Below are positions 56,104-64,000 of a DNA stretch of 64,000 nt, one piece after another. The notes under the pieces are model-generated. The model saw only the letters and a program-made list of their open reading frames with translations, was not told the origin of the DNA and made no database searches. Source of the DNA: Anaerostipes sp. MSJ-23 (GTDB taxonomy: Bacteria; Bacillota; Clostridia; Lachnospirales; Lachnospiraceae); contig NZ_JAHLPY010000009.1 of NCBI RefSeq assembly GCF_018918155.1, positions 1 to 64,000 on the forward strand, in the 5' to 3' direction. The stretch's first letter is position 1. Each line of letters opens with the position of its first letter. The position numbers and the translations under genes are program-made.

Positions 56104-56697
56104 TTATTGTTGTATCCATTTGCAACGAATAGCCATACGATTTTTTCCTCCATAGGTACAGGTAAATAATGTCATATCCCACTCACCTTTTTTCTTCATG
56201 GCTTTTACATCTGTTCCTGGAATCACTTCCATGTCTATAATTCGATACCAAAAAATATTACCATCCATATCCGTAAACTTAATCTTATTTCCGATATTCA
56301 ATGTCTTCAAACGACTAAAATGTGCACGAAAATTATGACCTGCAATAATAATATTCTTCTTATATACGCTTCCACGATAACGGCATGGTGCAATCTTTAA
56401 TCCAGCATAACTCCACTTGCTTAATACTGGAAGTTTTAACTTTAAATCCGGTACATAAAGCACTCCAATATAGTCTCTTCCATTGATTGTTTTTACTGGC
56501 ATTTTCATATCTGGATAAAGTTTATATAATGGACTTATTTGTGCTTTTGGAATCTCTGATTCTAACTGATTTAGTACTTCACTGGAAAACTTTTTTGCTC
56601 GAGAATCTTCCCATCGATTATAAATGGTCAATACAAGTGCCGCTGATATCAACAACATTCCGATTACCATCCATATGGTTCCCTTTTTACTTTTCAT
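56104..56697 (-). CDS. Sortase, second in the pilus operon
   Basis: The 197-residue protein has one N-terminal membrane segment (residues 8-25) and a sortase barrel. Catalytic residues are His121 in IIAGHNFRAHFSRLK, Cys180 in TLFTCTYGG, and Arg187 in KNRMAIR. It lacks the C-terminal membrane helix of pilus class C sortases and looks closer to class B/D/E-type. It may anchor the finished pilus or the minor pilin to the wall. Its start overlaps the minor pilin gene by 11 bases, so the two are tightly coupled. Class assignment is uncertain. Confidence 0.85.
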   Translation of the reverse strand: MKSKKGTIWMVIGMLLISAALVLTIYNRWEDSRAKKFSSEVLNQLESEIPKAQISPLYKLYPDMKMPVKTINGRDYIGVLYVPDLKLKLPVLSKWSYAGLKIAPCRYRGSVYKKNIIIAGHNFRAHFSRLKTLNIGNKIKFTDMDGNIFWYRIIDMEVIPGTDVKAMKKKGEWDMTLFTCTYGGKNRMAIRCKWIQQ

Positions 56698-57703
56698 CTT
56701 CGCTATCTCTCCGTCTTACCATTCCAATCAAAATACATAAAATTCCGCTGACTGTAAGAACCGGTACCGGCCACCATAACTGTCCTGTCTGCGGCAATTT
56801 TTTTCTCGTCGTATTCTGACGTTTATACTCTGCCGTTGTACGGGCTGTTGTTGTTTTTATTCCCCTTGATGTCGTTGTTATTGTATTCGTAGACGTTGTC
56901 GGCTTATTTATGTGTTGGTTTTTATAAGTATTAGTTATGATAAAAGACGTCCCTTCTTTTGCAACACTGACCGTATAAGCTCCTCTGACTTCTTCTGTCA
57001 CTTCCCATTCATTCTTTTCGGAAAGATCTTTCCATGTATGCTGCCAATTATTTTTTTCATTTAATGTAACTTCATCATAGATTTCCCCATCTTTTAAAAG
57101 CTGTACAACAATTGTTTTGGGACGATTTTTTCCATGGCCTTCATCTTTCCATATCTTTGTCACTTGATAATCGCTTTTCTTTTCTATCTCTGGTTTTTTT
57201 TCATATTTTGGAACTGCTTTGATTGTATATGTAATTTGACCATTTTCATCTCTTGCCGGAATCTCTGCAAAAAATGGCATTGCTGTATAAATATTACCTT
57301 TTTTCTTATGTTCTTCTCCGATCACTAAATACAAACCCCGTTTCAAGTCAGAAAATGTTAAATTTCCCTGTTTATCGGTTGTTCCGTGACAATAGGAAGC
57401 AAGTTGATCTCTGCAAACATAAGCAGCCAAAGTTTCTGCAGCGTCTCTCATAGCATCTTTATCTTTCCCATTCAATTCTACTTGATACTTGGAAAACTCA
57501 TCTGTTGTAATATAACTTCCGTTACCTGAAATATCTGCAACTCTATAAACACGAAATGTTGTATCCGAACATATGTAAGAAATTTGCAAATTTCCTGTTT
57601 TCTCTTGTGATATTTCTTGTGCAAATATATGAACCGGCATACTTACACAAACAATCAAAAATAGAATTATCATACTTTGTATTTTTTTCATTACATTCTC
57701 CAT
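56687..57703 (-). CDS. Minor pilin with Cna_B-like domain and LPQTG anchor
   Basis: The 338-residue protein has a signal peptide (cleavage probably after HIFAQ), an N-terminal pilin domain, and a Cna_B-like domain around residues 175-255 (YQVTKIWKDEGHGKNRPKT, VTEEVRGAYTVSV). A Thr-rich linker with TTTARTTA precedes the LPQTG motif, membrane helix and a charged tail RRRDSEDEK. It is probably the pilus base or an accessory pilin. The annotated start at 57703 lies 3 nt after the sortase stop; ATG at 57691, with GGAG upstream, is an equal alternative. Confidence 0.85.
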   Translation of the reverse strand: MENVMKKIQSMIILFLIVCVSMPVHIFAQEISQEKTGNLQISYICSDTTFRVYRVADISGNGSYITTDEFSKYQVELNGKDKDAMRDAAETLAAYVCRDQLASYCHGTTDKQGNLTFSDLKRGLYLVIGEEHKKKGNIYTAMPFFAEIPARDENGQITYTIKAVPKYEKKPEIEKKSDYQVTKIWKDEGHGKNRPKTIVVQLLKDGEIYDEVTLNEKNNWQHTWKDLSEKNEWEVTEEVRGAYTVSVAKEGTSFIITNTYKNQHINKPTTSTNTITTTSRGIKTTTARTTAEYKRQNTTRKKLPQTGQLWWPVPVLTVSGILCILIGMVRRRDSEDEK

Positions 57704-57706
57704 TTT

Positions 57707-58543
57707 TTAATCACCTTTTCCTCTTCGACTTTTCCTTGTTCGGATAAAAACTCCAATAATCAACAGAATACATACCGGAACTCCCATTGCAGTCGCCACT
57801 AAAAATGGATCAATCTGCAAAGCATCAGAAGCACCAACGTCTCTTGCGTTCACATTTGCAATTCTATGCCCACGAACTAACAGTCTGTGTGAATTCACTC
57901 CATACGGCGTACAGGTTACAAGGGTACACAAATCTTTCCCTTGTTCTATATCCAGATACTCCATATTGTCTGGCTTTACAATACGGATCTGATCAACCTG
58001 ATAAGTCAGAGTCTTATCTAATACTTGAAGCATAAATATATCCCCTTCTTCCATCTGATCCAGATTCGTAAATAATTTTGCAGATGGCAATCCACGATGT
58101 CCTGACAAAACACAATGGGTATTTTTCCCACCCGTTGGAAGAGAAGACCCTGCAATATGTCCGATTGCAATCTGAAGTACCCCTTCATCAACTCCATGAT
58201 AAATAGGAAGAGATACTTTGATCTTTGGAATCTCAATATAACCAATAATGCCATTCTTTCCGACATCCAAAAGTTTGTTATATACTTTCCAATCTTTTTT
58301 TGTCAGATGCCATCGATCTGGCTTTGTAATCAAAGTTTTATTATATTCCTGAGCTTCCTTCCATAGGCGCTGATAATCTTCCTTATCCAGTTTTTGCACT
58401 GCATCCACATAATTAGCAACGGCTCTTGTTTGGTAGAATGAATTCCAATAATCGCTCACCGTTGGATACAGCAATAAGCAAAGACCTACCACAAGAAACA
58501 AAATCACGATGATGGTTGATAAATGTTTTCTTATAAATTTCAT
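57707..58543 (-). CDS. Class C sortase (pilin polymerase)
   Basis: The 278-residue protein has N- and C-terminal membrane helices (residues 8-27 and 250-268), as pilus class C sortases do. Catalytic His149 is in VLSGHRGLPSAKLF, Cys211 in TLVTCTPYGVNSHR, and Arg220 follows. The segment KPDRW near 75 occupies the place of the lid motif. It should link pilin subunits through their LPXTG Thr and a pilin Lys. It lies directly between the backbone and minor pilin genes. Confidence 0.93.
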   Translation of the reverse strand: MKFIRKHLSTIIVILFLVVGLCLLLYPTVSDYWNSFYQTRAVANYVDAVQKLDKEDYQRLWKEAQEYNKTLITKPDRWHLTKKDWKVYNKLLDVGKNGIIGYIEIPKIKVSLPIYHGVDEGVLQIAIGHIAGSSLPTGGKNTHCVLSGHRGLPSAKLFTNLDQMEEGDIFMLQVLDKTLTYQVDQIRIVKPDNMEYLDIEQGKDLCTLVTCTPYGVNSHRLLVRGHRIANVNARDVGASDALQIDPFLVATAMGVPVCILLIIGVFIRTRKSRRGKGD

Positions 58544-58633
58544 AAGACTCTCCTTGCTGCTGTATTAGGGATTCCTACCAGGAGGAATTAGCATTTCCTC
58601 CCGAATATTTTCTCCCTTTTGAAAAATTTCTTT

Positions 58634-60151
58634 TTATTTTCTTGTACTCATACGTCTTTTTGTAATCAAAATAATTGCTGCACCAATAACAAAGATTGCG
58701 CCAACAACATAAAAGATTTTCGTACCAATTCCACCAGTTTCAGGCAATAAGGCGCCAGAGCCATTGATAACTTTTGTTGTGATAGATCCATTTTTTATAT
58801 CTGTCTCAAATACACGATCAACACTTCCTCCACCAAGGTTAGTTCCTTTCAAAGTAAGTAATTTTGGATCATCTGAAGATACATCATGTGTTGCCGTAAT
58901 TTCAAAATAAATATCATCAATTGAATTATATCCATCTGGAGTCTGTGTCTCTTTTAATCGATATTGCCCATCATCCAAACCTTTAAAAGTAAAAGTTGTG
59001 GTTGTTGAATCGTTTACCTCTACATACTCTCCAACGCTTTTCCATGTATCTTCAGCACTTCCTTCACCTTTTATTTTTTTCTCCAAAGTAAATTTAGCAC
59101 CTTTTAATGGTTTGTTATTTTGATCTACTTTATTAATCACAGTTTCATATGTAAAAGCGATAACTTTATCTACTGGAGTCTTACCAGTTTCTGGTTTTTT
59201 ATCTGAATCTTGATTTGGATTATTAGAAAATTCTAGATACATTTCATTTGGATTTCCTGCTTCTCCAATTTTCGCCTTATCATTTAATAGAGATTTATAA
59301 TCTACTTTAATCATACTATTATTTTGGACTTGCGGAATATTTTTTAAATCATCAAATACAATATCAAAAGTATCGTTATCATCAGTATTGGTAACAACTT
59401 CATATCCACTTGTAATCAATTGATCATCTACATATACTTTTACTGATTGGCTATCAAATGTTAACCCTTCTGATTCTTTATCATGAAAAACAAAACGATA
59501 TTTTCCTGCATAGGATTTCATATTATCTGCTACTCGTCCTTCTAACTGAAATGAAATTTTATCTCCAATATCGTAATCTGCAGAATCCTGCCAATCCGTT
59601 GTATTTCCCGTTGTATCATTGTGATCTTTGATTTTTTTCTTTGAGTTAGGAATAGATGCTTTAGGTTGTACATTAATATCCTTTACCACACGGAAAATAT
59701 ATTCTGTATAGGCATCATTTTGTTCTGTTAATGTATCATTTGCATCTTTGATCATATAATAACCTGCTGGCACTGTTGCCGATCCACCGCCTGTAATTGT
59801 CGCATAAGGTTTTGTCATATCAACATATTTATTAATTGCCTTACGTTTTTCAGCATCAGTTTTTGTAGATACATTTTGAATTTCCTGCAAAATATCATTT
59901 GATACTTTATCGCCTTCTTTTCCACCTTTCCCATTTTGTCCCCATTTAATTTCTCCAAGAACACCGCTATCACTTACCGTACCAGTAAATACCTGATAAA
60001 TCTCATAAGTATGACCAGTAGTACCAGATCCATCCATTTTAATTGTAAAATTAGCTGCCGAAACCTTTCTTGATGGTGCTATGACTATCGTCATTGCAAC
60101 TGCTAGTACCATGGTCAGCATGATACCAAGTATCTTTTTCATCTGTTTCAT
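58634..60151 (-). CDS. Backbone pilin with LPETG anchor
   Basis: I start at 60151 (MKQMKKILGIMLT), because AGGAGG lies at good distance from it and too near the first ATG. The 505-residue protein has a signal peptide ending SAA, an N-terminal pilin domain, and a VQPKASIPN motif near 164 whose Lys is the likely polymerisation site. A middle Ig-like domain and a Cna_B domain follow (INKVDQNNKPLKGAKFTLEK, E-box LKETQTPDGY). It ends LLPETGG, a membrane helix and KRRMSTRK. It should form the pilus shaft with the adjacent class C sortase. Confidence 0.92.
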   Translation of the reverse strand: MKQMKKILGIMLTMVLAVAMTIVIAPSRKVSAANFTIKMDGSGTTGHTYEIYQVFTGTVSDSGVLGEIKWGQNGKGGKEGDKVSNDILQEIQNVSTKTDAEKRKAINKYVDMTKPYATITGGGSATVPAGYYMIKDANDTLTEQNDAYTEYIFRVVKDINVQPKASIPNSKKKIKDHNDTTGNTTDWQDSADYDIGDKISFQLEGRVADNMKSYAGKYRFVFHDKESEGLTFDSQSVKVYVDDQLITSGYEVVTNTDDNDTFDIVFDDLKNIPQVQNNSMIKVDYKSLLNDKAKIGEAGNPNEMYLEFSNNPNQDSDKKPETGKTPVDKVIAFTYETVINKVDQNNKPLKGAKFTLEKKIKGEGSAEDTWKSVGEYVEVNDSTTTTFTFKGLDDGQYRLKETQTPDGYNSIDDIYFEITATHDVSSDDPKLLTLKGTNLGGGSVDRVFETDIKNGSITTKVINGSGALLPETGGIGTKIFYVVGAIFVIGAAIILITKRRMSTRK

Positions 60152-60218
60152 AAACATTCCTCCTTGTGTGTTTAAAATTAAAATTTACATTTATGAAAAT
60201 CAAGTTTTTAATAGGGCT

Positions 60219-63200
60219 TTAATCCTCCCTCATTCCCTGATATTTCCTTTTATAAAATATGACTATAAAAGCCGCTGCTATAAACAAAACTCCTGCTGCA
60301 ATATACCATTTAGTTCCCGAACCTCCTGTCTCCGGCAAAACATAAGATGCTACTTTGTTTGTAATCGAAATCTCACCACTTGAAATTCCATCATTATTAA
60401 CATACGTTACTTGAATTCCAGATGCGACATCTACTTCCTCAACTGTATAGAAATATGGTTTTCCTTCCGCATCCTTCTTATCAAGATTATCCCAAGAAGC
60501 AGTCCATTGATTACTACTATTTAACTCTTTTACATCTCCAACTTTTTCTTTATTTCCAACTGGCGTATAACTAGAAGCTGTTGCTGATTTAATTGTAGGA
60601 TTTTCAAAATAATCTCCTGATGTACAAGTGATAGTAACTGTTGTATCTTTCGTTACCGACGGAATTACATACGTCATTTCTGCTTTTCCATCAGAATTTG
60701 CACTTTCCTTTTTCCCATCATATTCAACAGTATATTTCTGATTCCATGCTGGCACTATAATTGTTGCCGAACTATTCTTATTAACTATCGTTGAAGTACT
60801 TTTAAAGAGACTACCATTCCCTTTTACATTGACCGTTAATGTATAACCATCCACTTTTGTTTTTTGCCGATATAATTGTACTTTTACATTTTTTTCTGTT
60901 GGTGATGTTGTTTTTCCCTCTTGATCTACCCAAAATTTCTTCACACTAACCTTTGTATAATCATTTGGTACATAAAGGCTTCCACCATCTGCTCCAAAGA
61001 AAAGGATTTTTGATTGATCAATTCCAGAACTTGAGGCCTGCGCTTTATTAAACGCTTCATTATTTTCTAAAATTTTTCCATTTTCCTTTGCCTTAAAAAT
61101 AAAATAATACGGCTGTTCTGCTTTAGAATAACCGCTTGGCGGCATCGTTTCTGTCATACGATACAAACGATAAGGCTCTAGCGCATCTTCTCCATCATGT
61201 TCTGCATTTAATTCTATTTGTCCATTACTATCTGTTACAAGTTGTTGTGCCTGTGTTTTCCATTTGCTTCCATCCCAATATTCCAACTGAAATTTAGCTC
61301 CTGGTAACAACTTTTTATTGTTTTCACTATCAACTTTATAAATTGTCAATTTTCCTTTTCGTACAATAGAAGAAGAAGTAATCTTCTCTAATTTTGCATC
61401 TGTTTTTTTCTCATATTCTCCGATCAAATTAACCATATTGCTTAGCTGTGGTTGATCATGATTTCCAGCATCTATCGTATAACGGTATACAAGCATACAC
61501 GACAATTCATCTGGTAGTTTCAATGTCATTTTATGACTGGTCTGATCATAAGACATCTGATAACGACTAGAATCTATCTCCTTTCCAAGATTATTTTGTT
61601 GTGATTCATCATAAAAATAAAGTTTTACATTAGTCAAATCTAAATAAGCATCAACTCCATTTGGAACACTCAATGTATCTGTCAATGTCAGAACATCTCC
61701 ATTTGGTAATAAATCTCTTCCGCCTGGATTAATTAGTACTTTGTACTCTACTACATTTGTTGCTTTTCCATCACTATCTTTTAACTGTTGTACAGATTTT
61801 TCTATATTATCTATCTGCCGATTCACAGTTGTATTTTGTTCTATATGGTTATTATTCCATTGTGCATTGTTAGAGTACACTTTATTATCTTTTGTCTTAT
61901 CCTGCCAATAAGGATCATTCTTCACTGATACAGCATAGGTAATAGAAATAATATTTCCATCCTCAGAATCGCCATTTAATTGTCCGCAGCTATTGTAGCC
62001 TTTTGCAATTTTCATCGTTATTTTCTGTCCATCTTGTGAATATGTTACTTTATTATTTCCATTAAAATTATAATTTCCCCATTGATCCGTACTCCAATAA
62101 TCATTTCCATAGAAATGTCCTTTAACAGAGTCTGCTACTAACGTTGCTCCATCTGGCAGCGTATCTGTAACTGTAATTTCTCCATCCTCATTTTTTTGTG
62201 TTCGAAGAAGAAGTCTGTAATATAAAATGCCCTCAGATGCATCATAATCTATCTTGGCACTTCCATCATGGTATGAAATATTATTGCCATCCTTAATACC
62301 GATCTGTTTGTCAAATACTTTTGGTCTTGTATAACTATGATCAGCAGTTACCGTATGGTTAGGAATAAAAGATTCATTTTTAAACTTCCATGTATCCCCA
62401 GTATTCATTGCCTCAATGTTTACAATCGTAGAATAATCTAATTGCATCTTTGTTCCTACAATATCTTTATGTCCATCTTTCGGTATAACATCCACAGTAA
62501 ATTTCTGAACTTTCGATGTAGTATCCGATGCTTGAATCTCTTTTCCATCCTTGTCATAATATTTTACTTGGAAGGAAACATAATCATTGTTATAGCCGCA
62601 CTCTGTATCTTTATCATTGATTTTTAACGTAATTTTGATTTTATCTTCGATCTGTTTCTGCAATTCAGATGCGATCGCATAATGACTGTTTTCTGTAGGA
62701 GTACTTGTACCTCCTTCGGTTGTTGCCTGTTTGATCGTATCTGTATACTGGAACGTTCCCATCGCACCATTTGGTAATGTAATAATTGATTGCCAATGAT
62801 AGTAATGTTTATCATTTTTTGTTTCTTCGCCATTCCATTGCTTTGAAAGATTCCATGAACGATGATTCACTCCAATTTCTTTTTCAGAATTATAGTCTTT
62901 CCCATCTTTTCCGATATTTGCTGTATTTTTTACATTACTATTTCCATCAGGTGCTTTTGTTTGGTATTCAATCGTGTACGTATCTTTTGATCCCTCTCCA
63001 AAGGTATAAGATAAATCTTTCTGATTTGCAGAGATCTTTCCAATTTCTTTGCCTGAACTATCTTTAATAATGGCATCTCCTACCATATCTTCCGGCAATG
63101 TATCAGTAAATTTATATCCACTAATATCTTTCTTCGATTGATTTACTGTAACTTTCCATTGAATTAGACCCGTATTTTGATCATAGTATCCATCTTTAAA

Positions 63201-64000
63201 AATCATCGATTTAGAAATTTCCACACTATTCCATGCCCAATCATTATGATTTCCGCTTTGTGCACCAGCACTGTTCGCAAGAGTACCTGCTCCATCTTTT
63301 CCTGTTGTCTCTGCTTCTGCTGTATAACTTACAACATACTGTTCTCCTGTTTTTAATGCCGGAAGATTGGAAATTTCAAATTTCTGTGCAGAATTTTCTG
63401 TCGTAATCGATGGTGTATATCCATTTACTTCTGTCTTATTTCCATTGGCATCTATTTTATAAATTTTAAAACTATCTTTATTATAAGTTCCAGTCGCATT
63501 TCCATTTTGGAATGCATCTTTAATCGTTACATTGCCTTCTGTACCATTTTTAGTAGAAACCGTTACTGAATATTCAATTGTTTTTCCATCTTCTTTCAAA
63601 GTTGCTGTTTTCTTCGTATTAATGTCATATTCTTCTTTTTGTTTTTTTACTGTAATACTTCCAGCATCTCCACCAAACTTAATTTTTCCATCTTCTCCAA
63701 CACCATCTCTTGAGAGAGTTCCTTCAAATTGAATTTCTCCACTGAATGCATCTCCATTAGCAAACTCTTTATTAAACCGAATTTCAATTAAGCCATTTGT
63801 ATCGATAATATAAGTACCAACATTTCGAATTCCTTGATAGACAATACCGGTTTCCTTCTTGCTGAGCTGAATACCACTTGGTAACTGATAATAGATTATT
63901 GTTTGATTATCTGGCACTTTTCCGGCAGGCAATTGATATTGTAAATTTAGACGAACCTGATCACCTTCCGTAAACTCTGTAGATTCCTTCCATTGTCCAT
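60219..64000 (-). CDS. Large LPETG-anchored adhesin/tip pilin, 5' end outside window
   Basis: The frame is open from the stop at 60219 through the window edge, at least 1259 codons, so the start is missing. The visible part has repeated beta-rich segments like collagen-binding adhesin domains (VSTKNGTEGNVTIKDAF, VTVNQSKKDISGYKFTDTLP). A Cna_B-like domain lies near 61320 on the map (LTIYKVDSENNKKLLPGAKF, E-box TETMPPSGY), and a second such segment is close to the C terminus. It ends SYVLPETGG, a membrane helix and KRKYQGMRED. As first gene in the pilus operon it is the likely tip adhesin. The host ligand is unknown. Confidence 0.9.
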   Translation of the reverse strand, partial: GQWKESTEFTEGDQVRLNLQYQLPAGKVPDNQTIIYYQLPSGIQLSKKETGIVYQGIRNVGTYIIDTNGLIEIRFNKEFANGDAFSGEIQFEGTLSRDGVGEDGKIKFGGDAGSITVKKQKEEYDINTKKTATLKEDGKTIEYSVTVSTKNGTEGNVTIKDAFQNGNATGTYNKDSFKIYKIDANGNKTEVNGYTPSITTENSAQKFEISNLPALKTGEQYVVSYTAEAETTGKDGAGTLANSAGAQSGNHNDWAWNSVEISKSMIFKDGYYDQNTGLIQWKVTVNQSKKDISGYKFTDTLPEDMVGDAIIKDSSGKEIGKISANQKDLSYTFGEGSKDTYTIEYQTKAPDGNSNVKNTANIGKDGKDYNSEKEIGVNHRSWNLSKQWNGEETKNDKHYYHWQSIITLPNGAMGTFQYTDTIKQATTEGGTSTPTENSHYAIASELQKQIEDKIKITLKINDKDTECGYNNDYVSFQVKYYDKDGKEIQASDTTSKVQKFTVDVIPKDGHKDIVGTKMQLDYSTIVNIEAMNTGDTWKFKNESFIPNHTVTADHSYTRPKVFDKQIGIKDGNNISYHDGSAKIDYDASEGILYYRLLLRTQKNEDGEITVTDTLPDGATLVADSVKGHFYGNDYWSTDQWGNYNFNGNNKVTYSQDGQKITMKIAKGYNSCGQLNGDSEDGNIISITYAVSVKNDPYWQDKTKDNKVYSNNAQWNNNHIEQNTTVNRQIDNIEKSVQQLKDSDGKATNVVEYKVLINPGGRDLLPNGDVLTLTDTLSVPNGVDAYLDLTNVKLYFYDESQQNNLGKEIDSSRYQMSYDQTSHKMTLKLPDELSCMLVYRYTIDAGNHDQPQLSNMVNLIGEYEKKTDAKLEKITSSSIVRKGKLTIYKVDSENNKKLLPGAKFQLEYWDGSKWKTQAQQLVTDSNGQIELNAEHDGEDALEPYRLYRMTETMPPSGYSKAEQPYYFIFKAKENGKILENNEAFNKAQASSSGIDQSKILFFGADGGSLYVPNDYTKVSVKKFWVDQEGKTTSPTEKNVKVQLYRQKTKVDGYTLTVNVKGNGSLFKSTSTIVNKNSSATIIVPAWNQKYTVEYDGKKESANSDGKAEMTYVIPSVTKDTTVTITCTSGDYFENPTIKSATASSYTPVGNKEKVGDVKELNSSNQWTASWDNLDKKDAEGKPYFYTVEEVDVASGIQVTYVNNDGISSGEISITNKVASYVLPETGGSGTKWYIAAGVLFIAAAFIVIFYKRKYQGMRED

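Follow-up and report, generated by a model that had tools for sequence, protein, structure and literature searches.

In the pili described in PMC8244301 growth is ended by addition of the basal pilin, and this basal subunit is joined to the peptidoglycan by a class A sortase encoded elsewhere. In Lactobacillus rhamnosus a GxG sequence following LPXTG is given as the mark of class C substrates (PMC5536039). The SpaCBA pilus of L. rhamnosus GG (with SpaB and SrtC1), as far as it is covered in PMC5536039 and PMC8244301, resembles the island analysed here in having a class C sortase, a backbone, an adhesin and a basal pilin with an LPQTG signal lacking GxG. It differs in that the anchoring class A sortase (SrtA) is located elsewhere in the genome, whereas the sortase proposed here to perform the anchoring lies within the operon. 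The sorting signals also differ, since that of SpaB continues as DTVAAW and that of the minor pilin here as QLWWP.

The streptococcal FCT and PI-2 regions are similar in having a relative of signal peptidase I (SipA/LepA) in the pilus operon (PMC7900414). In the account given there SipA/LepA lack the catalytic residues, whereas the corresponding protein of the present island passes the cut-off for signal peptidase I. In the streptococcal systems SrtA performs the anchoring. Folds of the present island also match those of the Clostridium perfringens pilus, namely its backbone pilin (CppA) and its class C enzyme (SrtC; 6ixz, Z = 16.1). A tail-less sortase of Filifactor alocis, FA1364, is labelled class C and works as an anchoring sortase according to the description in PMC13257024; unlike SrtX, as we term the second sortase of the present island, it has the motif ILLSC and its gene does not share an operon with those of the substrates.

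The pilus island itself is of a known kind. The new part would be an operon-borne, unclassified second sortase with its own extended sorting signal and natural fusions. We found no description of such a pairing with substrate fusions in the open-licence literature of PubMed Central, this being the scope of the search.

Organization and distribution of the pilus island

The window, i.e. the whole stretch of 64,000 nt that was analysed, is part of contig C9 of a genome of 2.52 Mb that is rated 99.4% complete. Five open reading frames on the minus strand at 56104–64000, each supported by Pfam and NCBIfam, form a sortase pilus island (Table 1). The gene order is that of the original prediction (adhesin, backbone pilin, class C sortase, minor pilin and second sortase), and the family searches give good support to the view that this is a pilus island with two different sortases. 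The adhesin does exceed 1250 residues, with part of it located beyond the edge of the window. All five genes are real, but the extent of five genes was too short, because the island continues upstream of the adhesin on the contig with genes for signal peptidase I, a coiled-coil-like protein and a two-component system (response regulator and histidine kinase). The distinct sorting signal of the minor pilin had not been noted; it reads LPQTG and not LPETG.

Table 1. Features of the sortase pilus island in window coordinates
Feature	Position	Strand	Description
SrtX (second sortase)	56104..56697	-	197 aa; N-terminal membrane helix only; LFTC; H121, C180, R187
Minor pilin (proposed basal)	56687..57703	-	338 aa; 3′ end shares 11 bases with the start of SrtX
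Minor pilin sorting signal LPQTGQLWWP	56768..56797	-	Strict DNA pattern match 56769-56796
Lys166 codon, AVPK motif, proposed shaft acceptor	57206..57208	-	At least 90% conserved in 52 minor pilins
Class C sortase (pilus-polymerising type)	57707..58543	-	278 aa; NF033745 284 bits, cut-off 160
Backbone pilin	58634..60157	-	507 aa; PF16569, SpaA, Gram_pos_anchor; signal LPETGGIG
Adhesin	60219..64000, runs past window edge	-	1573 aa on the contig; signal LPETGGSG

The adhesin has matches to SpaA, Cna_B, Collagen_bind and an LPXTG anchor (Pfam and NCBIfam). The Collagen_bind match is marginal, with 27.6 bits against a cut-off of 27.5 (27.2 on scanning the full-length protein), and is the sole hint of a possible binding to mucus or host. 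Near the N-terminus of the adhesin, just outside the window (L008:14304-14767, contig C9 ~64303-64766), there are six repeats of the type HxHTxxCY with a spacing of ~24 residues. These are rich in cysteine and histidine and resemble a metal site, and have no Pfam match; frames with two or more such repeats are present in 25 of the 52 SrtX loci with full flanks. The signal peptidase I of the island scores 120.6 bits against a cut-off of 47, and presumably retains the Ser and Lys residues. It is preceded by the coiled-coil-like protein of 174 aa (L008:15586-16110), which has neither a Pfam nor an NCBIfam match.

Scanning named genomes gave 99 relatives of SrtX, of which the best 79 loci were analysed. 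Among these best 79 of 99 the hosts are mostly gut Clostridia, in agreement with the gut Clostridium host that had been suggested; carriers include Kandleria vitulina, Faecalicatena contorta, Faecalibacterium prausnitzii, Peptostreptococcus russellii and Peptoniphilus stercorisuis. Among the 52 loci with ~9 kb of sequence upstream, 44 have a relative of the minor pilin and 43 one of the class C sortase; for the backbone the count is 38, for the signal peptidase 35 and for the coiled-coil protein 30, and the histidine kinase has a relative in a single locus. Of 196 genomes sampled across the class 15, counting this one, match SrtX at E = 1e-25 or better.

The minor pilin

The minor pilin matches Cna_B with 57.7 bits. 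In an alignment of 52 minor pilins, relatives that are 21–41% identical to that of the window, T306, G307 and G320 are invariant, and Lys166 (within a YDVxAxPK motif), P304, W311, P312 and G327 are at least 90% conserved. A loose xPK pattern is found in only 45 of 71 minor pilins; the conservation of K166 at 90% or more is that of the 52 aligned rows. The predicted structure (pLDDT 88.9) has two beta-rich domains, a weak stretch from 261 to 310 and a terminal helix. Foldseek matches it to CnaB repeats (5.6e-9), the basal pilin EbpB (3.7e-7) and GBS52 (8.4e-6), and also to CppA, all with low TM-scores of 0.2–0.3. Three features of a basal pilin are found in the protein: a lysine within the motif, an LPXTG-type signal without GxG and a CnaB-type domain. 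From its sequence, the minor pilin has both working parts of a basal pilin, a putative acceptor lysine and an anchor signal.

Insertion of the island and the sortases of the genome

The island is an insertion. It is flanked by a 124-aa frame beside mutS2 and by an isochorismatase-like gene, with 13.2 kb between them here. The same flanking genes are separated by 0.8 kb in the congener G010, by 1.1 kb in G005 and by 5.2 kb, with other genes between, in a third (G001). The remaining seven of ten congeners are uninformative; three are missing the small flanking gene, and in four the flanks are on different contigs or far apart. None of the ten congeners has a close relative of SrtX, one giving a 31% match that derives from an element-like locus.

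Of the seven sortase-domain matches of the genome three belong to class C and two to class B, and the other two are SrtX, so that no candidate for a class A sortase is left among them. The genome thus seems to lack a housekeeping sortase A. The second SrtX belongs to a paralogous island on contig C2, which adjoins an integrase-like frame and has the same order from the coiled-coil protein to the second sortase. Both copies of SrtX are situated in an island and beside an LPQTGxxxWP protein. A third pilus locus, on contig C24, consists of adhesin, pilin and class C sortase only, with neither SrtX nor the WP signal. The adhesin of the paralogous island (L009:2704-5559) has His/Cys repeats of the same type together with a CHAP domain (28.2 bits, cut-off 26), and looks as if it might be able to cut peptidoglycan. 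In a further locus (L012:3153-5621) a class B sortase is accompanied by a signal peptidase-like frame and by a pilin-like protein that matches streptococcal pilus models weakly.

Classification and fold of SrtX

SrtX belongs to the sortase superfamily (C60), with a PF04203 score of 60.3 bits against a cut-off of 26.6, and the catalytic H121, C180 and R187 are invariant in an alignment of 71 rows. Among the sortase classes scored no NCBIfam class model is over its cut-off. Assignment to class C was rejected with scores for NF033745 of 39.7 bits (49.1 for the paralogue; 44.0, 42.1 and 45.1 for three relatives) against a cut-off of 160. Class B was rejected, TIGR03064 not being listed at E = 0.001 (nor at 0.01 for the paralogue); two class B genes of the same genome score 213.6 and 177.9 with this model. 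Class D (NF033746, 35.1 bits, cut-off 165) and class E (NF033747, 31.7 bits, cut-off 160) were likewise rejected, and the SrtD and GN models give 43.4 against 140 and 34.1 against 158. There is no class A model among the NCBIfam matches of SrtX. With the general sortase model SrtX falls just below the cut-off of 39.35 (38.7 bits) and the paralogue passes it (41.9 bits).

The predicted structure of SrtX (pLDDT 93.8) begins with a helix from residue 4 to 48 and ends with a strand from 186 to 194, with no C-terminal helix. The membrane tail of class C enzymes is therefore truly missing, as was originally proposed. The core fold is nearest to class C structures (3g66, Z = 16.6, RMSD = 2.8, 152 residues aligned), followed by the class D structure 4d70 (Z = 15.6); among class A entries 5hu4 scores highest (Z = 13.7).

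In a tree of 98 sortases a branch supported at 100/99 separates SrtX and its 70 relatives (71 rows) from class C and the other sequences. In a first tree SrtX required two changes, because a short and wrongly cut frame (D_L197) fell inside the group, and two class B rows were placed beside SrtX on a long branch with support 81. The tree of 98 sortases, the second one, was built after removal of the class B rows and of frames lacking the sortase motif, with class C represented by 14 sequences instead of 22; its bootstrap had not settled. The rows other than SrtX were these 14 class C sequences, 11 loose relatives of classes D and E and two element-borne sortases, with no class A or B. The D/E rows are loose relatives only, since no sequence was over the class D or class E cut-off in 56 and 81 genomes respectively. 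Three sortases with the motif TLFTC (L035:8661-9281, L036:7822-8430 and L037:2748-3371) adjoin frames of >1900 aa that resemble parts of mobile elements. The two of them that were included in the tree are placed next to SrtX, with support 86/88.

Two sorting signals and their linkage to SrtX

Within the best 79 of the 99 SrtX loci a frame with a sorting signal lies directly before SrtX in 66, and in one further locus (L054) the signal is in the same frame. Of these 67 SrtX-adjacent signals 61 have WP at positions +4/+5 after TG, four have one of W and P, and two have neither; of these two L108 is an artefact of register, reading LEQTGQLNWP. The non-adjacent signals of the same loci are different, with no WP in 113 of 119 and G directly after TG in 96 of 119. 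The remaining six WP signals are all in SrtX loci, five of which have no signal frame adjoining SrtX, the sixth being a second signal in L045. The frame before SrtX in L101 carries an ordinary LPSTGG, and a WP signal was not seen in the examined flank of seven loci (L038, L039, L043, L044, L051, L076 and L088).

The linkage was examined across the order in 392 genomes, using a strict DNA pattern for LPQTGxxxWP and an SrtX profile derived from sequence likeness and not from the sorting signal, SrtX being counted at 101 bits or more. Three of these genomes (G000, G022 and G046) had contributed to discovery of the motif. SrtX is present in at least 60 genomes and the strict pattern in 41, with both in 39. 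The pattern occurs without an SrtX match in two of 332 genomes, and SrtX without the strict pattern in 21 of the at least 60; SrtX may be undercounted, because at most eight candidates were scored per genome. Of 47 matches to the pattern 44 lie no more than 5 kb from SrtX, and for 41 the distance is at most 510 bases. Two of the distant matches (G138 and G162) were rejected as chance frames of 17 codons without a surface protein; the third is in G137:C16. The reversed pattern gave three matches in the 392 genomes. Because related genomes are counted as independent, the Fisher p of 6e-36 for the co-occurrence should not be read literally.

The linkage fits equally well a role for SrtX in building the minor pilin into the shaft. 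On this view SrtX would be a second sortase of pilus assembly, acting on the minor pilin in the manner of an accessory class C enzyme, and another enzyme would perform the anchoring. The proximity of its core fold to class C rather than class A, its position adjoining the minor pilin in the operon, and the occurrence of two class C genes plus SrtX in one island (L045) are consistent with this. Yet SrtX lacks the C-terminal helix and both copies score far below the class C cut-off, the signal beside it has none of the GxG of class C substrates, and no class A sortase was found in the genome that could do the anchoring. We regard this alternative as unlikely, while giving it more weight than the two considered below.

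A smaller chance is allotted to the possibility that WP has no relevance to the choice of sortase, and is a membrane-entry feature inherited with basal pilins and tied to SrtX by shared descent of the island. The island genes do travel together, and the tree shows only about three joint changes of sortase and signal state, a number that does not suffice for a test. Against this, the W and P are at least 90% conserved in minor pilins that have diverged to 21–41% identity with that of the window, and the WP signal is kept in displaced minor pilins (L042 and L066) and in a very large protein of 4255 residues. The latter frame (L031:3174-15941) lies directly before SrtX and ends in LPQTGSLWWP, so the substrate of SrtX need not be a small pilin.

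Enzymes with the motif LYTC in place of an LFTC-type motif are accompanied by signals that lack the proline at the second position (e.g. LIQTGQLNWP) in 10 of 10 cases, and this is found in none of 61 other loci. On the tree there are about three changes of each, always together; these amount to two independent pairs, with which the coupling cannot reach significance, and it is suggestive only.

Fusions of surface proteins with SrtX

In five genomes (G022, L054, G265, G393 and G398) a surface protein and SrtX are encoded in a single frame. That of G022 (contig 20) is a frame of 437 aa that passes from a signal peptide and a pilin-like part into FPQTG, a hydrophobic stretch and a basic tail, and then into a second helix and the SrtX domain; Pfam detects only the sortase. 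The L054 frame comprises Cna_B, LPQTGQLWWP and a sortase domain, but this is a metagenome bin, and a stop codon could have been lost by an error of assembly. In the other three, which are of one genus, a frame of ~1035 aa ends with LPEAG, a helix and a sortase domain, and in the case examined (L178) its neighbour is a sortase of class C type. The LPEAG of these proteins is possibly a dead signal; a signal LPLAG is reported as a substrate of SrtA in PMC7900414. L052 and L100 were rejected as fusions, a separate minor pilin frame being present upstream in both.

That SrtX is an ordinary class A-like housekeeping sortase, present in the island by chance and serving all the LPXTG proteins of the cell, is very improbable, for while it has the single N-terminal helix of class A, and the tail-less Filifactor sortase labelled class C is described in PMC13257024 as acting as a housekeeping sortase, the two copies of SrtX are each in an island beside an LPQTGxxxWP protein, this signal is nearly confined to SrtX genomes, and in some genomes SrtX is fused to one surface protein.

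DISCUSSION

We consider it probable that the island makes a covalent pilus and brings its own wall-anchoring sortase, with SrtX fixing the minor pilin as the base. From the two types of sortase, the two types of signal, their genome-wide linkage, the conserved lysine and the fusions we infer the following chemical steps and their order. The class C sortase would join the backbone subunits and the adhesin via their LPETGG signals to lysines of the PK type, and lastly would attach the shaft to the minor pilin at Lys166. The cut by SrtX would fall between T and G of the signal LPQTGQLWWP in the minor pilin, and the enzyme would join this protein to peptidoglycan; the minor pilin would therefore be the base of the pilus. 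The two sorting signals would hold shaft building and anchoring apart, and SrtX would anchor in place of a housekeeping sortase A.

A more extended proposal, which we put forward tentatively and as slightly less than an even prospect, is that SrtX is a sortase class of its own that reads past the cleavage site into a membrane-proximal QLxWP, and that the LYTC sub-clade could for this reason lose the standard proline (LIQTGQLNWP). This would let a mobile island anchor its pilus in hosts that lack sortase A, and in some genomes the enzyme would have become fused to its substrate, giving a surface protein with its own anchoring enzyme.

In model Gram-positive bacteria pilus assembly depends on a housekeeping sortase whose gene lies elsewhere. 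Should SrtX anchor the base, the pilus kits of gut Clostridia would be mobile and self-sufficient, and the enzyme for each subunit could be predicted from its sorting signal alone. A single operon supplies two enzymes and two peptides for a direct test of sortase choice. SrtX and its signal would also mark a class of gut surface pili for which NCBIfam 20.0 has no family model.
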